Part shown: positions 3,766 through 29,802 of the stretch, one piece after another | Layout: each line of letters starts with the position of its first letter | How positions within the stretch are numbered: the stretch's first letter is position 1 | Origin: a virus | Reading direction: 5' to 3' (one strand) | Length of the DNA: 29,802 nt | IMG/VR virus record: IMGVR_UViG_3300010885_005508 | Location: 1-29,802 of that record | Made by a program: the position numbers and the translations under genes | The notes under the pieces: generated by a model | Databases searched by the model: none | Seen by the model: only the letters and a program-made list of their open reading frames with translations | Told to the model about the DNA's origin: nothing

Positions 3766-3946
3766 TTTTTTTTCGGTTTTGTTTGTGTTTCGCGCGTGAC
3801 GAAATGATTTTTTGTTGTTTTTTGATCGAATTTTTATCGCGCCGGATCATTGTCCTTTGTTGATCGATCAAATTTTGTTCGTGAATGATTTCGTTCGATT
3901 TGCACGATACTAAAAAAAACGCTAAAAAACAAATAAAATTTTTCAT
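3737..3946 (-). CDS. Small putative lipoprotein between terminase genes
   Basis: This 69-residue product has a short signal peptide of the lipoprotein type: MKNF, a hydrophobic run and the lipobox LVSC with Cys15. The rest is strongly basic (Lys/Arg-rich) and probably helical. Its ATG overlaps the small terminase stop (TAATG), and its 3' end overlaps the large terminase start, so it is very likely a translated gene. The family is not recognised. A small basic lipoprotein could be an outer spanin, a superinfection-exclusion lipoprotein or an accessory protein. It is far from the lysis genes, which argues weakly against a spanin. Confidence 0.6.
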   Translation of the reverse strand: MKNFICFLAFFLVSCKSNEIIHEQNLIDQQRTMIRRDKNSIKKQQKIISSRAKHKQNRKKNGRKKLRII

Positions 3947-4350
3947 TAATCAAACGAAATAATTTGATCGCCTATTTTGAAAACTTGTTTTTGTTCCGTG
4001 ATCGTTTGTTCAACTTCTGTTTTATCGATCCAACCCATATTTTTGAGGGCAAAAATCGCCCCGGCGTTGTTGTGTCCTTGGATCAATTGTTCGTAGTGGT
4101 GTTCAACCATTGTTCGCGCCCTTTTTATTGTGTGAGAAAACGGGGACGTTTTTTCGTAATCGTAAAACGAACGGCGATCGCAAAACCCTAAAAACAAGGT
4201 TAATCCCGTGATCGTTGGTTTTTGATCGTATTCCATTAAGAAATCAAAATAATTGTTTACGGCGGTTTGAAACGCCTTTTCGGTTGCATATTTGCGGGGA
4301 CGTCCGCCCCTTTCGCCGTAAATTTGCCAAATTGTTTTTTGTTTTTTCAT
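3946..4350 (-). CDS. terS: Terminase small subunit
   Basis: The 134-residue protein would recognise phage DNA and recruit the large terminase. The N-terminal part has GRPRKYATEKAFQTAVNNYF, then a helix-turn-helix-like stretch PTITGLTLFLGFCDRRSFYDYE (about residues 45-67). After it comes the family-like segment FSHTIKRAR...VEHHYEQ...NAGAIFALKNMGW (about 71-108), which is common in phage small terminases of the gp3/'DNA packaging' type. Length is typical. It starts three bases after the stop of the nuclease gene (TAATCAATG), and its stop overlaps the next start. Order small terminase, lipoprotein, large terminase supports the call. Confidence 0.82.
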   Translation of the reverse strand: MKKQKTIWQIYGERGGRPRKYATEKAFQTAVNNYFDFLMEYDQKPTITGLTLFLGFCDRRSFYDYEKTSPFSHTIKRARTMVEHHYEQLIQGHNNAGAIFALKNMGWIDKTEVEQTITEQKQVFKIGDQIISFD

Positions 4351-4353
4351 TGA

Positions 4354-5100
4354 TTAAATTTTAAAATCGTTTTTATACCACCGCCCGAACAACATTTCGC
4401 GCGTTTCTTTTTTTCTTTTGTTGTACGCGTCGATTGATTCGAATTTTCTAAATTTAGTATATTCCGAATTGAAATCAATATTAAATCCGTCCGCTTTGTC
4501 CATTTCAAAGATAATAAAACGTTTTACGCAATCGATAAATTTGTCTTTATTGGACGGATCGCAAATTTGATCAATGATCGTTATTTGATCGAATTCCATA
4601 TCATAAATATATTTCCAAACCTTATTTTGATACAAAAATAATTCCTTTGAAATTCCGTAAATTTCCAAATCGTAAACGTGTTCTAATCGATTAAATTTTT
4701 CCAATATTTGTTCCATAATTATAAAATAAAAAATTTGTTTAAATTGTTCAACTGATCGGATCACGAAAACAAAAAATCCGTTTTGTTTGAATTTTGCGTG
4801 TATCAACTTTTGATCCGGGGACGTTTTTCCGGCGGTTGTTTTCAATTCGAAAAAAAACGTTTGCGATTGAATGCAAAAAATCAAATCCGGGATCCCGGCG
4901 ATCGTTCCGGATTGTTTCAATCGTGACGCTTCGATCCGGGAACGTTTTCCGCCGTTTGGGACGTGAAACAATTGTTTTCGGTATTCGGGGAATTTTTTGT
5001 GTGTCCATTGGAAACAATCGTTTTGCAAATTAAATTCAATCGTGACCGCCAAATCCGGCGTTTTTGCATTTTTGAACTTGTTCGTTGATATATTTTCCAT
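4354..5100 (-). CDS. VRR-NUC domain nuclease with an extra C-terminal domain
   Basis: Residues 1-125 carry the VRR-NUC pattern of the PD-(D/E)XK nuclease superfamily: Gln27 region (FNLQND), HVPNGGKR, then AGIPDLIF (Pro71-Asp72), FFFELK (Glu85, Lys87) and a downstream Gln97. Phage VRR-NUC proteins of about 100-130 residues are thought to act in recombination or as junction-processing nucleases. Here the frame continues for another 120 residues with no recognised motif. Met129 (ATG at 4716) is preceded by the AATTATGG context seen at other starts in this genome, so the tail may also be made as a separate protein. The gene begins at the edge of the iteron region and leads into the terminase genes. 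Confidence 0.82.
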   Translation of the reverse strand: MENISTNKFKNAKTPDLAVTIEFNLQNDCFQWTHKKFPEYRKQLFHVPNGGKRSRIEASRLKQSGTIAGIPDLIFCIQSQTFFFELKTTAGKTSPDQKLIHAKFKQNGFFVFVIRSVEQFKQIFYFIIMEQILEKFNRLEHVYDLEIYGISKELFLYQNKVWKYIYDMEFDQITIIDQICDPSNKDKFIDCVKRFIIFEMDKADGFNIDFNSEYTKFRKFESIDAYNKRKKETREMLFGRWYKNDFKI

Positions 5101-5152
5101 ATTTAAAAATTCTCTTTAAAATCAATATTATTTTTTTCATTTTTTCATTTTT

Positions 5153-5448
5153 TTAGGTGTGAACGTTTGTTGCCGTTGTTGCCATTAAAAAATCGTAACG
5201 TTCACATAACGTTCACACGTTGGATCGCCCGGCGTTGTTGACTTTCGGCGTTTTGTTGCCGTTGTGAACGTTAAAAATTGAATAAAAGTTTATATTTTTA
5301 TTTATTAGAGAATAGGCGATCCCGCGCAATATAAAAGTTTTCAATTTTTTAACGGTAACGTTCACAACTTCGATTATTTTATTCATTTTCAATTAATTAG
5401 GTGTGAACGTTAAAAATTTCGTTAACGGCAACGTTCACACGTTGGATC
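5153..5448. repeat. Gene-free iteron array, candidate replication origin
   Basis: The 346-bp gap between the primase and nuclease genes has no supported gene. It holds seven copies of TGTGAACGTT. Three are in plus orientation (5158-5167, 5263-5272, 5402-5411) and four are inverted (5197-5206, 5208-5217, 5357-5366, 5430-5439). They form matched inverted pairs: GTGTGAACGTT/AACGTTCACAC twice, and TTGTGAACGTT/AACGTTCACAA once, where the outer base co-varies. Longer repeats are AACGTTCACACGTTGGATC at 5208-5226 and 5430-5448, TTAGGTGTGAACGTT at 5153-5167 and 5397-5411, and TTTGTTGCCGTTGT at 5166-5179 and 5252-5265. An A+T-rich core lies at 5273-5350. Location beside the primase gene suggests an origin; a multi-operator control region is the alternative. 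Confidence 0.7.
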
Positions 5449-7636
5449 AAAACGGCAATTCCCCGCGTTCGATGTCGGGTTCGTTTTCGTTGACGTATTG
5501 TCCGCGTATTTCTTGCGCGTAATATCCGCGAACGATGTTTCCGTTTATTCTTTTACGATCGTTTAAAAACCCTAATTGGATCATATTTTTTCCGACAATG
5601 CGATCGTTGAATTTCACGCGTCCGTCGGTGTTAAATGTCAATTGTTGAACGATGTCGGCGATCGTGTAAAATTGCGCGCCTTGGACGTCACGATCACAAA
5701 CGCGGAAATATTTCGCAATTAATTCTTTGCCGACGTCGGAAACCTCGAAAATTTTATTTTTTTGCGATTGGTGTTCGTTTTCGTCCGGCGTTAATTGGGC
5801 GTTGAAACCCGTTTTCCATAGCGCGAACGCTTGCGACCACAAATCGGAAATATCAATTTTTGAATAATTCCAATCGATTGATTTCACGTTGTGACATAGC
5901 CAACGCGTGTTTTCGGTATCCGTTAAAAAATTTTGATTATTGGTTGATCCGAAAAAATTCGCGCGTCGGACAACGGGTTCCACGTCGTGCGCGTATGGTT
6001 TCCGTTCTTTTATGATCGCTTGCGAAATGATCGCCTTTAATCGATTGACGTCGGTGTTTTTCATATCGGATAATTCTTCGATATTGTAAATAAAATTTTC
6101 CGCGAATGCGAATTGTCCGTCTTTGTCGTCCCGAACTTTTGATTCGGTGTAATATTCCCCGGCGGGAAATGGCGACAACGATCGAATAAATGTCGATTTT
6201 CCCGTGGATTGTTTTTCCCCCACCAAAACGAAAACGAAACGATTAACGGAATAATCCATAATTTGCGCAACTGATCGAACTAAATGTTTTTTGAACATTG
6301 ACAAATAAAACGGTTGATCGTCGGTTTGAATATAATTTGCGAATTCGGAAATATAATCCCGGGAATTGTCCCAATCGTGCAAATTAATAAAATAGGATTT
6401 CAACGGATCGTATTCCGGGACGAAATCCGATCGCAATAACGATTTTATTTTATCAACCGATGTTATTTGTCCACAATGCAACGCGAAACGTGTCACGGTG
6501 TCGAAATTCACTTTTTGAAATTTTGCGTTTTGATCCGCCCGGACGCGACAATCGATCGATTGCGTTACGACGTTTCGTTGAAATTCCCATTTGTCCGCGA
6601 TCACAATTTCCGTTTTGACGTGTTTCGGTTTGTCGTCGAACCCGTGGAAATGTTTTTCCGTTTCGAATACGTCGCGGAATATTTGTTCAACGCGTTGTTT
6701 TCCGATCAAAAATTGTTCACACATTTGAACGATGTCGTTCCCGTCGAAATCACGTCCGGCGCGATTAATTGCGCGCGCGTTGGCGAATATTTTCGCGATA
6801 TGTTTTTTATTTTCGGCGGATTTTTTGATTTGTTCGTGATAATGTTCCGCCGTTATTGGGGCGGTTTTTCCATACTTTATTCCGTCGGCGATCGTTTGTT
6901 TAAAATTATAATTTTGATCGAAATCGCGTTCAACCCAAACGGACGCCAAACGGTTTTCGGTGTCGAATTCGTCGATCAATCCCGAACCAATATATCCACC
7001 CATTAATCGCGACGCTTTCAATAATTTATTATGTCGTTCGCCGTCGGTTGAATTACGGATCATATTTTCGGCGATTGAAATAATTTTGTCCGGGTTGAAT
7101 TCGCGTTCGCGATCCATATCCAAACGAACGGCGGAAACGTTCAAAACGGCGTTTGGATCAAACGTCACAAATCGCGGGCGTGAAATATCTTTACACGCGG
7201 GATCGATTGTCAATTGATAATTTGTCAAATAATAATCGGACAAAAAATCAAAACTTTCACGATGTCGCGTTGGATCAATTTTCACGAAAACACATAAACC
7301 GCCCCCGGATACCGAAATACAAGTGAACCACGAAAAACGATCGCAACCGATAAACGATTTCACGTCGTCCACGTCGTCCAAATTATCGAAATCAATCGCA
7401 ATGATTCCCGAATGATTTTTGATCCCGTCGTCGCGTCGGTGTGTGAATGTCCCGGACGCCGTAAAATATGGAACCGATTTTTTCAAATCCCTTTGTTCGG
7501 TTTTGTCTTTTGCCCCGCGAACGCGTTCGACGTGTTCAACCCATTGTCCGGATTGGATCGCGTCGAAAACGTCGTTTATTGCGACTTCGTGTCCGCCGGT
7601 TGTGTCCTTAATTGTTTTAAAAATTGATACATTCAT
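5447..7636 (-). CDS. Primase-helicase: BT4734/VirE-type primase domain plus VapE/D5-like P-loop ATPase
   Basis: The 729-residue protein probably primes and unwinds phage DNA. The N-terminal domain (about 1-175) resembles the BT4734-like/VirE_N primase fold: PYFTASGTF, then the metal-binding strand IIAIDFDNLDD (Asp82, Asp84), the SVSGGGLCVFVKI loop (108-120) and ISRPRFVTFDP (151-161). A linker is followed by a VirE/VapE-like ATPase. This has Walker A GEKQSTGKS at 473-481, Walker B FIYNIEEL at 515-522 and the sensor region STNNQNFLTDTENTRW (about 564-579). The C-terminus is probably a DNA-binding winged domain. The start overlaps the helicase stop by ATGA. The stop lies inside the last iteron-associated repeat. 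No DNA polymerase gene is seen, so a host polymerase is presumably used. Confidence 0.88.
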   Translation of the reverse strand: MNVSIFKTIKDTTGGHEVAINDVFDAIQSGQWVEHVERVRGAKDKTEQRDLKKSVPYFTASGTFTHRRDDGIKNHSGIIAIDFDNLDDVDDVKSFIGCDRFSWFTCISVSGGGLCVFVKIDPTRHRESFDFLSDYYLTNYQLTIDPACKDISRPRFVTFDPNAVLNVSAVRLDMDREREFNPDKIISIAENMIRNSTDGERHNKLLKASRLMGGYIGSGLIDEFDTENRLASVWVERDFDQNYNFKQTIADGIKYGKTAPITAEHYHEQIKKSAENKKHIAKIFANARAINRAGRDFDGNDIVQMCEQFLIGKQRVEQIFRDVFETEKHFHGFDDKPKHVKTEIVIADKWEFQRNVVTQSIDCRVRADQNAKFQKVNFDTVTRFALHCGQITSVDKIKSLLRSDFVPEYDPLKSYFINLHDWDNSRDYISEFANYIQTDDQPFYLSMFKKHLVRSVAQIMDYSVNRFVFVLVGEKQSTGKSTFIRSLSPFPAGEYYTESKVRDDKDGQFAFAENFIYNIEELSDMKNTDVNRLKAIISQAIIKERKPYAHDVEPVVRRANFFGSTNNQNFLTDTENTRWLCHNVKSIDWNYSKIDISDLWSQAFALWKTGFNAQLTPDENEHQSQKNKIFEVSDVGKELIAKYFRVCDRDVQGAQFYTIADIVQQLTFNTDGRVKFNDRIVGKNMIQLGFLNDRKRINGNIVRGYYAQEIRGQYVNENEPDIERGELPF

Positions 7637-9153
7637 AAATCTATATTATTAAAAATTTTCTTTTTTGCGAAATGGATCCAACTTTTTTTATATCCCATAA
7701 ATTCGGCGAATTTCGTCAAATTTTCGTCCGTTTGATCGATTTGATGTAAAATCCAATGTTTTTTAAATCCCTTTATTTTTTGGATTTCCAACAATTCGTC
7801 GAAATTCATTTCGGAATACGGTTTTTTCAAATGATCCGGAACAACAACTATCCCGGACGAACCGTCGATCATTTCGTTTATTTCCGTTTCGATCATTTTA
7901 CGTTCGTTTTTAGGAAATTCAAATCCGCAATCCGAACAAACGGGCGCGGACGCGTGAATAAATGATCCGCAACCGTGTTTTTTTCGTTTTTCCGGCGTTA
8001 ATTCGTCGCGCGTATATTCACGGAACGAACCGTCGTCGAAATGTTCCACAAATGGATCCGGACATTGTTTTTCCGGCGCGACGCCTTTACCTTTGATCGC
8101 GTGCCACAATGAAAAATTTCGTTTTCGTTCCCAAAATCCCAATTCTATCACGTTTCCCCCCATATCCAAAATAATAAATTCATTTTTATTTCGAAACAAA
8201 CGGGATCCACGTCCGCACATTTGCAACCACAACGGAACGGATTTCGTTCGTCGGTTAATTACAACACATTCGATCGACGGTTCGTCGTATCCGGTTGTCA
8301 AAATTTCGACGTTGCAAAGGACGGAAAATTTTCCGAATTTGAAATCCCGCAATATTTTTTCCCGTTCGGATTTTGGCGTCGTTCCGTCGATATGTTCACA
8401 ACTAATTCCCGCGGAACGAAACGCGTCCCGGGTTTTTTTTGAGTGTTCGACGTTGATATTAAAAACAAGTGTTTTTTTTCCGTTTGCGAATTTATTCCAA
8501 TGCGAAATTAATCCGTCGTATAAAAACGGCTTATCGTAAACGTCGAACATTTGATCGGATTTGTAATCGCCCCCGGACAATCCAACGCCTTTAATATCAA
8601 CAACGGATCCAAAGGTTCGCGCGGGACATAAAAACCCGTCCGAAATTAGATCCGCGATGTCCACGGATTGAACCATTTGATCATATATCGATCCTAATTG
8701 TGTCATTGTTCGCCCCTTGCGTAATGGCGTCGCGGTTGCCCCAATGATAAACGATCCGCGATTTTTATATTCGATCGCCACGTCGTCAAAAATTTGTTTG
8801 TGTGCTTCATCGATCACAACCAATTCCACAAACGGAAATTTTCGTTTTTTCAACGTTTGCACGGTTGCGACATAACAACGGGACGAATAATTGATCCATT
8901 TTTTCCCGCCCGTTATTATTTCGGATTTCAATCCGTAATCGTTCAATTTTGCCACGGATTGATCGATCAATTCTTTGCGATCGACTACAATCATAACACG
9001 GAAACCGTTATCGACTGAATTTCGGCAAATGTCCGCAAACGTGACCGTTTTCCCGGATCCCGTCGGCGAACATAAAACCACGGATTTTTCCCCGCGTGAA
9101 AAACAATCCCGGACGTCGTTTTTTAATTCGGTTTGATATGGACGTAATTCCAT
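7633..9153 (-). CDS. SF2 DEAH-type DNA helicase with C-terminal zinc-ribbon-like element
   Basis: The 506-residue protein is a superfamily 2 helicase of the phage/RecG-UvrB-like 'YPYQ' group. Motifs in order: LRPYQ near the N-terminus, Walker A SPTGSGKT (29-36), DEAH (115-118), GATATP (138-143), the LTTGYDEPSIECVV motif V region (about 285-298) and motif VI QMCGRGSR (311-318). A possible metal site follows: CGSF...VCSDCGFEFP with Cys395, Cys406 and Cys409. The last 90 residues are helical and basic. It probably unwinds or remodels DNA in replication or recombination. It is coupled on both sides: the upstream micro-ORF stop overlaps its ATG (TAATG), and its own stop overlaps the primase start (ATGA). 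Confidence 0.9.
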   Translation of the reverse strand: MELRPYQTELKNDVRDCFSRGEKSVVLCSPTGSGKTVTFADICRNSVDNGFRVMIVVDRKELIDQSVAKLNDYGLKSEIITGGKKWINYSSRCYVATVQTLKKRKFPFVELVVIDEAHKQIFDDVAIEYKNRGSFIIGATATPLRKGRTMTQLGSIYDQMVQSVDIADLISDGFLCPARTFGSVVDIKGVGLSGGDYKSDQMFDVYDKPFLYDGLISHWNKFANGKKTLVFNINVEHSKKTRDAFRSAGISCEHIDGTTPKSEREKILRDFKFGKFSVLCNVEILTTGYDEPSIECVVINRRTKSVPLWLQMCGRGSRLFRNKNEFIILDMGGNVIELGFWERKRNFSLWHAIKGKGVAPEKQCPDPFVEHFDDGSFREYTRDELTPEKRKKHGCGSFIHASAPVCSDCGFEFPKNERKMIETEINEMIDGSSGIVVVPDHLKKPYSEMNFDELLEIQKIKGFKKHWILHQIDQTDENLTKFAEFMGYKKSWIHFAKKKIFNNIDL

Positions 9154-12047: not shown

Positions 12048-12713
12048 ATGGCTATCAATGCAACTGATAACGGATCGAAATCCGTTGATCCAATCAAACC
12101 GGGAACACATATCGCGCGTTGCGTTCAAATGATCCACGTCGGAACATTAACGGAAGATATTCAAGGGAAATCCACGACGCGAAATTTAGTTCGATGTACT
12201 TTTGAACTACCGTCCGAAATGCACGTTTTCGACGAATTAAAGGGCGCGGAACCGCGTTTCGTTTCAAAGGAATTCACGTTGTCGTTAAATGAAAAATCGA
12301 CATTGCGTAAATTTTTAGATACGTGGCGCGGAACGCCATTCACGCCGGACGAGGCGAAAAAATTCGACGTAACGCGTTTATTGGGCGTTCCGTGTATGCT
12401 TTCAATCGGTTTGAAAACGTCGGCGTCCGGGCGCGCTTATAATTCAATAGATAGCGCGTTGGCGGTTCCAAATGGGATTCCCGCACCGGAACAAATAACG
12501 CCGTCGTTAGAAATCAATTACGAAAACATTTCCGAAAATTGGGAAAAAATCCCGAATTTTTTACGCGAAAAAATGATCACAACGCCCGAATTTAAGGCGT
12601 CCGGATTTATTCCCCCGGTTGACGTACAAAACGACGGGAAATCAACGGAAACCGCGCAACCAACAAACGAATTCGCGCAACCGGGCGAACCAATTAAAAA
12701 AATGCCGTTTTAA
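12048..12713 (+). CDS. Probable single-stranded DNA-binding protein (phage type)
   Basis: The 221-residue protein has the outline of a phage ssDNA-binding protein. It opens with a beta-rich core (PIKPGTHIARCVQMIHVGT, LVRCTFELPSE), then FTLSLNEKSTLRKFLDTWRG, a segment I know from phage proteins annotated as ssDNA-binding or OB-fold. After LLGVPCMLSIG comes a low-complexity linker, then a tail ending EPIKKMPF. The hydrophobic MPF end is reminiscent of the SSB tail that recruits replication partners, though the acidic run is weak. It would protect ssDNA during replication with the primase and helicases. The largest gene of this cluster. Confidence 0.65.
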   Translation: MAINATDNGSKSVDPIKPGTHIARCVQMIHVGTLTEDIQGKSTTRNLVRCTFELPSEMHVFDELKGAEPRFVSKEFTLSLNEKSTLRKFLDTWRGTPFTPDEAKKFDVTRLLGVPCMLSIGLKTSASGRAYNSIDSALAVPNGIPAPEQITPSLEINYENISENWEKIPNFLREKMITTPEFKASGFIPPVDVQNDGKSTETAQPTNEFAQPGEPIKKMPF

Positions 12714-28878: not shown

Positions 28879-29787
28879 TTAAACGCCTTGCGCCAACGCA
28901 ACGATTCCTTTATTATCGTTTCTCAATTTTGTTGATCCGTGCATTAACAACGCGGAAAAAACTGATCCGTAAAATTCCGGTTTGTCCTCGTCCGCAAATA
29001 CTTTAATTGCGCCCAACGCTTGCGCAACGCTTTGTTTTTGGAATGCAAACGCCCCAATACAATCCGTTGTCGCGTCCGCTGATCCAACCGCTTTTTTAAC
29101 GCCCGCCGACGCTGAATTGAACAAAATTGTTGTTGGACGTTTGAAAACTTTAAATCCGAAAATTTCGTTAACAACGCCGTTCGTTTGATTCGCAACACGA
29201 CCGAAATCCGCACGAACCAACGCGTCAATTCCGAATAATTCGTAATACATTAATGTAGGCAAAACTAAAAAACGATCGTTCATTGGAACGTTGTCGTCGT
29301 CTAATTTACGCGCCATTCTCGCGATATCTTCTTTTGTGATCATTTTACGCGTTCCCGTTGCCGTTGAATTCGGTAATTGGGACGTTGACGCGCCCGACGT
29401 TCTTAATACTAACGACGAGGATCCCGACGGTGTCCAATCATACGCAACTTCAGTTCCGATACGTTCGTTTAAAACGTTCAAATGTTGTCCTAACACTGAA
29501 TTTCTTTTCGCATAACTAACTTGTAACGCGTCCAAATCCGTAATTAAAACCGGATCCGTTGTGTACTCGTTTAAATCGAACGTTAATTCCGTGTCGGTTC
29601 TTTGTGCGATTGTTGCCGGTAAAACCGAACGATTTTTCGCGATCGCGGACCCCGCGCCACTTTGCGGAATGTGAACCGTATGATTTGAAACAAACGCGGA
29701 ATAATCCGTCCCCGCCATAATGAATTCCGATCCTTGGTGTAACGTTTCTTTGATGTCCGCCACCCATATTTCTTTTTGTAATCCCAT
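28879..29787 (-). CDS. Major capsid protein
   Basis: The 302-residue protein begins MGLQKEIWVADIKETLHQGS, followed by YSAFVSNHTVHIPQSGAGSA and ELTFDLNEYTTDPVLITDLD. This N-arm, beta-hairpin and long-helix order is typical of HK97-fold capsid proteins of Bacteroidota phages. The middle has RFLVLPTLMYYELFG and an extended EIFGFKVFKRPTTI strand. The C-terminus shows FAFQKQSVAQALGAIKVF and the P-domain-like YGSVFSALLMHGSTKLRND. Abundance and place before the sheath fit. The ATG at 29787 is 15 bases from the window end. Confidence 0.87.
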   Translation of the reverse strand: MGLQKEIWVADIKETLHQGSEFIMAGTDYSAFVSNHTVHIPQSGAGSAIAKNRSVLPATIAQRTDTELTFDLNEYTTDPVLITDLDALQVSYAKRNSVLGQHLNVLNERIGTEVAYDWTPSGSSSLVLRTSGASTSQLPNSTATGTRKMITKEDIARMARKLDDDNVPMNDRFLVLPTLMYYELFGIDALVRADFGRVANQTNGVVNEIFGFKVFKRPTTILFNSASAGVKKAVGSADATTDCIGAFAFQKQSVAQALGAIKVFADEDKPEFYGSVFSALLMHGSTKLRNDNKGIVALAQGV

Positions 29788-29802
29788 TTTTTTAAATTTT
29801 AA

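Follow-up and report, generated by a model that had tools for sequence, protein, structure and literature searches.

A candidate replication origin of the SaPI Rep kind next to a VapE-type primase-helicase gene in a full-size Bacteroidota phage

What is the function of an array of short repeats that occupies the gap between the stop codon of a VapE-type primase-helicase gene and a VRR-NUC nuclease-like gene, 8 to 290 bp 3' of that stop? The array lies in IMG/VR virus record IMGVR_UViG_3300010885_005508, of which the stretch analysed here (the window) covers 29,802 nucleotides at a GC content of 40%. A sequence-only reading had proposed an initiator-binding origin, and this proposal now draws strong support from the conserved position and architecture of such arrays and from the homology of the neighbouring gene to SaPI Rep. 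We consider it highly probable that the array is the replication origin of the phage. By analogy with known systems, the C-terminal winged helix of the adjacent primase-helicase would bind the repeated word TGTGAACGTT, the helicase would melt the DNA and load itself, and the fused primase domain would prime synthesis.

The repeat array and its genomic setting

All seven copies of TGTGAACGTT are exact and lie within 5158-5439, with none elsewhere in the 29.8-kb record (Table 1). Allowing one mismatch gave 15 matches in the whole window against 4.7 expected, the eight additional ones being dispersed. In 1000 dinucleotide shuffles of the 346-bp gap (5101-5446), the highest copy number of any 10-mer was three, compared with the seven observed; chance does not explain the array. 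Other details of the earlier description were also confirmed. The starts of iterons 2 and 3 are 11 bp apart, the 19-mer AACGTTCACACGTTGGATC is present twice (at 5208 and 5430), its second copy (5430-5448) overlaps the primase-helicase stop codon (5447-5449), and an A+T-rich core separates the iteron sets. Three plus four copies flank this core, which forms a gap of 90 nt when measured between hexamer cores. An outer base said to co-vary between paired copies does so for pairs 1/3, 4/5 and 6/7 (bases outside copies 1 to 7: G, A, G, T, T, G, G) and carries little weight, copy 2 being omitted and the pairs few. No Rfam family match was obtained in 4900-5600.

The array also contains a second motif, GTTGCC[GA]TT, which had gone unreported. 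It is enriched within arrays, with p values of ~7e-5 in the window and of 1e-3 and 2e-4 in two close relatives (L009 and L010, respectively). In a sister phage, L008, the GTTGCC motif is the only iteron.

Table 1. Features of the array and of the neighbouring genes (window coordinates)
Feature	Position	Strand	Remarks
VRR-NUC nuclease-like gene	4354-5100	-	next gene downstream of array
Very A+T-rich flank	5101-5157		array to VRR-NUC start; up to 90% A+T (5101-5150)
Iteron 1, TGTGAACGTT	5158-5167	+	exact match
Two GTTGCC[GA]TT copies	5169-5187	+	starts 5169 and 5178
Iteron 2, TGTGAACGTT	5197-5206	-	exact match
Iteron 3, TGTGAACGTT	5208-5217	-	opens first 19-bp copy (5208-5226)
GTTGCC[GA]TT copy, GTTGCCGTT	5255-5263	+	
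Iteron 4, TGTGAACGTT	5263-5272	+	at edge of A+T-rich centre
A+T-rich centre	5273-5356		candidate unwinding element between iteron sets; AT 0.76, genome 0.60
Iteron 5, TGTGAACGTT	5357-5366	-	inverted relative to iteron 4 across A+T-rich centre
Iteron 6, TGTGAACGTT	5402-5411	+	
GTTGCC[GA]TT copy, GTTGCCGTT	5424-5432	-	overlaps iteron 7
Iteron 7, TGTGAACGTT	5430-5439	-	opens second 19-bp copy (5430-5448)
Primase-helicase gene, 729 aa	5447-7636	-	BT4734-like N domain, VapE AAA+ helicase domain, C-terminal winged helix; proposed initiator
Predicted C-terminal winged helix	5510-5752	-	residues ~629-709 (wing ~691-709); proposed iteron-binding domain
Second helicase gene, SF2 ResIII type	7633-9153	-	upstream neighbour of primase-helicase

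Pfam and PHROG assignments revealed capsid, Mu-like portal, terminase, tail sheath, tape measure and baseplate genes, indicative of a contractile-tailed phage. Since the window carries all of these genes itself, its classification as a PICI or satellite was rejected. The gene order VirE/VapE, VRR-NUC, small and large terminase, Gp36-like adaptor and Mu-like portal is present in the window and matches that of the Winoviridae phages FPSV-S1 and pippi8-1.

The sequence-only reading had further held that the genome encodes no polymerase. No DNA polymerase was identified when the majority of the larger proteins were compared with Pfam and PHROG, in agreement with that view, and absence is unproven because a short segment linking the two ends is probably missing from the record. 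A missing piece is suggested by the genes at those ends (1-348 and 28879-29802), which comprise a truncated gene beside the portal gene and the major head protein. Elsewhere, a plus-strand protein (12048-12713; phrog_862, no assigned function) has KKMPF at its end and is, on its sequence, a candidate phage single-strand-binding protein. GC skew across the window gave no usable minimum; it tracks gene strand and is therefore uninformative with regard to an origin.

The proximity of terminase genes (3946-4350 and on), together with the fact that pac and cos sites may contain repeats, invites the explanation that the array is a maintenance, packaging or partition element with no role as an initiation site. 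In phages, however, the VRR-NUC gene separates the array from the terminase genes, and the array is also found beside VapE in genome contigs in which a Toprim or RepB primase gene comes next. We regard such an element as extremely improbable and the replication origin as the better explanation.

The primase-helicase as the proposed initiator

The N domain of the primase-helicase belongs to PF08800 (BT4734-like). The only sequence relative found in the PDB is 7pds, the SaPI PriRep1 protein (phmmer E 9e-11). A model of residues 383-729 was generated with AlphaFold2 from a 35-sequence alignment, with a pLDDT of 87, and of ~90 for the C-terminal winged helix. Foldseek matched the model to 7pds with an E value of 3e-15, and its alignment with PriRep1 (Z 24.5, 290 aligned residues, rmsd 4.4) spanned model residues 27-330, winged helix included, a near full-length match of the predicted fold; the runner-up structure reached a Z of 15.0. 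Taken alone, the predicted winged helix resembles many generic winged helices, the best being RFX5 (Z 9.3). RFX domains read DNA via the wing. No PDB sequence match of weight was found for the isolated winged helix, and the matches listed did not include the P4 origin-binding domain.

Which part of the protein would contact the repeats? The primase N-terminal domain or a single-strand-binding protein had been suggested. Within the same primase-helicase, the predicted C-terminal winged helix is the likelier binder, because SaPI Rep and Cch2 bind via their C-terminal domain and P4 alpha via a winged helix. With their C-terminal domain, SaPI Rep helicases recognise the iterons of an origin that immediately follows rep, apparently as two hexamers (PMC7581432), and the winged helix of P4 alpha binds ori repeats (PMC4234260). 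Alternatively, the array could be an origin bound by the VRR-NUC protein, by the SF2 helicase (7633-9153) or by the primase-like N domain, and VRR-NUC and the SF2 helicase are indeed the usual neighbours in phages. Yet the array is kept where VRR-NUC is absent, and in FPSV-S1, pippi8-1 and phi17:1, which have a separate VirE N-domain gene, it still lies beside the VapE helicase. As the homologues also bind through a C-terminal domain or winged helix, we judge a different binder to be very unlikely.

Covariation between the repeats and the protein was assessed by partial Mantel tests. The association of iterons with the winged helix, helicase-core distance being held, was r 0.10 (p 0.05); that with the helicase core given the winged helix was 0.36. 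Column by column, winged-helix positions lay slightly above the core for association with iteron type (p ~0.03-0.04). The most strongly associated columns were 696, 620, 660 and 701, with 696 and 701 falling within the wing. Covariation of the iterons with winged-helix residues thus exceeds that with the helicase core by only a small margin and is confounded by descent; given that iterons follow lineage, it is no proof of the binder.

With the winged helix as the probable binder, initiation would most probably proceed as follows. The winged helix would bind the TGTGAACGTT iterons on either side of the A+T-rich centre, and AAA+ helicase hexamers would assemble on both sides of this stretch. The hexamers would then melt the centre, load themselves and move outwards, whereupon the fused BT4734-like domain would make primers for extension by the host polymerase. 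The helicase C-terminus, both in the window (5447-5490) and in L008, L009 and L010, bears an acidic tail with LPF or FPF (GELPF, ENLPF, ENELPF, ENFPF). The tail resembles the C-terminal tip of bacterial SSB, and it may recruit host replication proteins.

Position, architecture and repeat words in related loci

In the three closest relatives (L008, L009 and L010; 70-76% identity over the aligned helicase part), arrays likewise precede VRR-NUC. L009 and L010 share the iteron word of the window, L008 has GGTTGCCGTTA instead, and L010 contains additional DNA between the helicase gene and the array. Iteron words vary by lineage and include GTGAACGTT, GTTGCCGTTA, GTGTAACC, TGGAACA, GTGACCA and TGTAGTCA, amongst others. 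Flavobacterium FPSV-S1 possesses GTGTAACC, pippi8-1 TGGAACA and Cellulophaga phi17:1 GTGACCA, in each case between VapE and VRR-NUC. When viral contigs were screened for exact, inverted pairs of TGTGAACGTT at most 30 bp apart, none was returned, because words and spacing change.

A scan with a seven-sequence alignment yielded 25 VapE loci from viral contigs and 18 from genome contigs, partly redundant with earlier ones. When each whole locus was searched without regard to position, the strongest 7-mer cluster fell 3' of the VapE helicase in approximately three-quarters of 44 loci, and in most loci the repeats immediately 3' of the helicase were enriched at log10 p values of -7 to -20. Distant VapE phages with clear 3' arrays include APSE-7 (GTTGTTAC), Streptococcus SW30 (GGTAAC) and Paenibacillus GIW2016 (TGTTGCAG). 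A clear array (AGGTAACC) is also present 3' of the gene in Flavobacterium snusmum6-2, and a weak one in a Dorea phage. No array adjoining the VapE gene was found in phi46:1, P12024S, BT12, PY6, phi3ST:2, Arya, L039, L046 or L052-L054; the link between helicase and array is therefore not universal. The expectation of the sequence-only reading, that relatives with this primase would share such repeats, is borne out by all three of the closest and fails in several distant ones.

Strong repeat clusters lie further downstream of the VapE gene in phi3ST:2 (TTAGCTAC, 11 copies at ~5457-5724, 1.4 kb away) and in Arya (GGTGAC, 12 copies at ~6035-6326, 2.1 kb away), and these are possible displaced origins. 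In the APSE-7 record, a putative origin is annotated upstream of the VapE gene (1370-1470) and the GTTGTTAC array lies 3' of the gene (~3930-4190). One further VapE gene with repeats (L045) resides on a contig labelled Candidatus Saccharibacteria that is probably mis-binned, as its C-terminal region is near-identical to that of a Bacteroidetes locus, L051.

The arrays also share an architecture. The largest inter-copy gap is A+T-richer than the locus in 32 of 33 arrays (median AT 0.75 versus 0.62) and is bordered by inverted copies facing each other in 28, with the proviso that in L012, L022 and L023 this gap is defined by an outlying copy and is unreliable. Many words have AC or ACA as their last letters when read in the direction of the gap (GTGAAC, GTTACA, GGAACA, GACTACA, GGCTACA), as judged solely by reading the table.

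Conversely, the gene after the array varies. It is VRR-NUC in phages and a Toprim/zinc-ribbon (DnaG-like) or RepB primase gene in mobile elements, and because the helicase remains constant, the array goes with the helicase. VapE and an array followed by one of these primase genes were observed in four loci from genome contigs (L040, L043, L050 and L048), which look like mobile elements rather than phages. An operator array, at which the repeats bind a phage transcription regulator of VRR-NUC and then of the packaging genes, would be in keeping with the location of the array upstream of VRR-NUC, whose start (5100) is 58 bp below the last iteron, and with the inverted repeats typical of operators in promoter regions. 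However, the downstream gene may be VRR-NUC, a Toprim primase, a RepB primase or none recognised, beside a constant upstream helicase; promoter-like matches in the gap are solely on the plus strand and point away from VRR-NUC; and an array with 7-13 copies surrounding an A+T-rich gap suits an origin better. We therefore consider an operator very unlikely and favour a replication origin.

Described origins and the spread of the design

PICI origins lie 3' of rep and comprise two iteron sets around an A+T-rich region, with rep-ori driving replication (PMC6092414; for the SaPI rep-ori system, Ubeda et al. 2007, cited in PMC7581432). The window resembles SaPI/PICI in its putative self-loading AAA+ initiator helicase, homologous to VapE and with a predicted C-terminal DNA-binding domain, in the origin-like region directly 3' of the rep gene, as in most relatives, and in the two sets of short iterons flanking an A+T-rich region. 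It differs in being a full-size contractile-tailed Bacteroidota phage with other iteron words and a fused BT4734-like primase domain. P4 likewise possesses a primase-helicase with a winged-helix origin-binding domain (predicted in the window) and has crr, with TGTTCACC repeats, just 3' of the alpha gene. The hexamer GTGAAC of the window iteron recurs in the P4 type 1 repeats, GGTGAACA, which are present in both orientations; GGTGAACA itself is absent from the window and the hexamer is all that is common. Unlike the PF08800 domain of the window protein, the P4 alpha primase is of the Toprim type (PMC4234260), and P4 has a separate ori several kb from crr.

SCCmec Cch2, likewise a D5-type helicase, has a C-terminal domain that in isolation binds direct repeats in a putative origin just downstream of the gene (PMC7581432), but it has only three 5-nt iterons and its partner is an element-specific polymerase/primase, CCPol-MP. 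The origin of the crenarchaeal plasmid pRN1 lies just 3' of orf904, which encodes a primase-helicase with a winged helix at its C-terminus (PMC4234260), and is a stem-loop instead of iterons. A literature search for VapE together with iterons found no paper. An origin-like element has reportedly been described in the replication module of the S. thermophilus phage Sfi21 group. The earlier remark that no described origin has this motif holds for the 10-mer, whereas the layout had already been described (PICI/SaPI ori, PMC6092414; P4 crr). Judged on homology, predicted fold and analogy, the window, a full-size Bacteroidota phage, would carry an origin of the SaPI Rep kind, and as a type this is ordinary.

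What appears to be new, on sequence comparison, is that the design extends across mobile elements and full-size Bacteroidota phages and that its word turns over rapidly in a constant frame. The mixed GTGAAC/GTTGCC candidate origin of the window's clade is notable. A broader and more doubtful proposal, which we offer tentatively, is that a single origin design (a VapE helicase followed by iterons that surround an A+T-rich core) is common to these phages and elements, contrary to a 2018 statement that the PICI origin layout is found in no other known bacterial replicon (PMC6092414). Under this proposal, the word would have been swapped repeatedly and the frame kept, the window's clade (GTGAAC plus GTTGCC; GTTGCC only in sister L008) would represent a switch step, and initiator wing residues ~696-701 would set the word, amounting to a readable initiator-DNA code.

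The array points to a replication origin in an uncultured-phage record and provides a rule, namely to search 3' of the VapE helicase for candidate origins. This rule yielded candidates in Flavobacterium, Cellulophaga, Paenibacillus, Streptococcus and Hamiltonella (APSE) phages and in integrated elements. The more than 12 iteron words with matching initiators constitute a data set for how such initiators read DNA, which would be of use for predicting cross-initiating or competing replicons and for constructing replicating Bacteroidota vectors.
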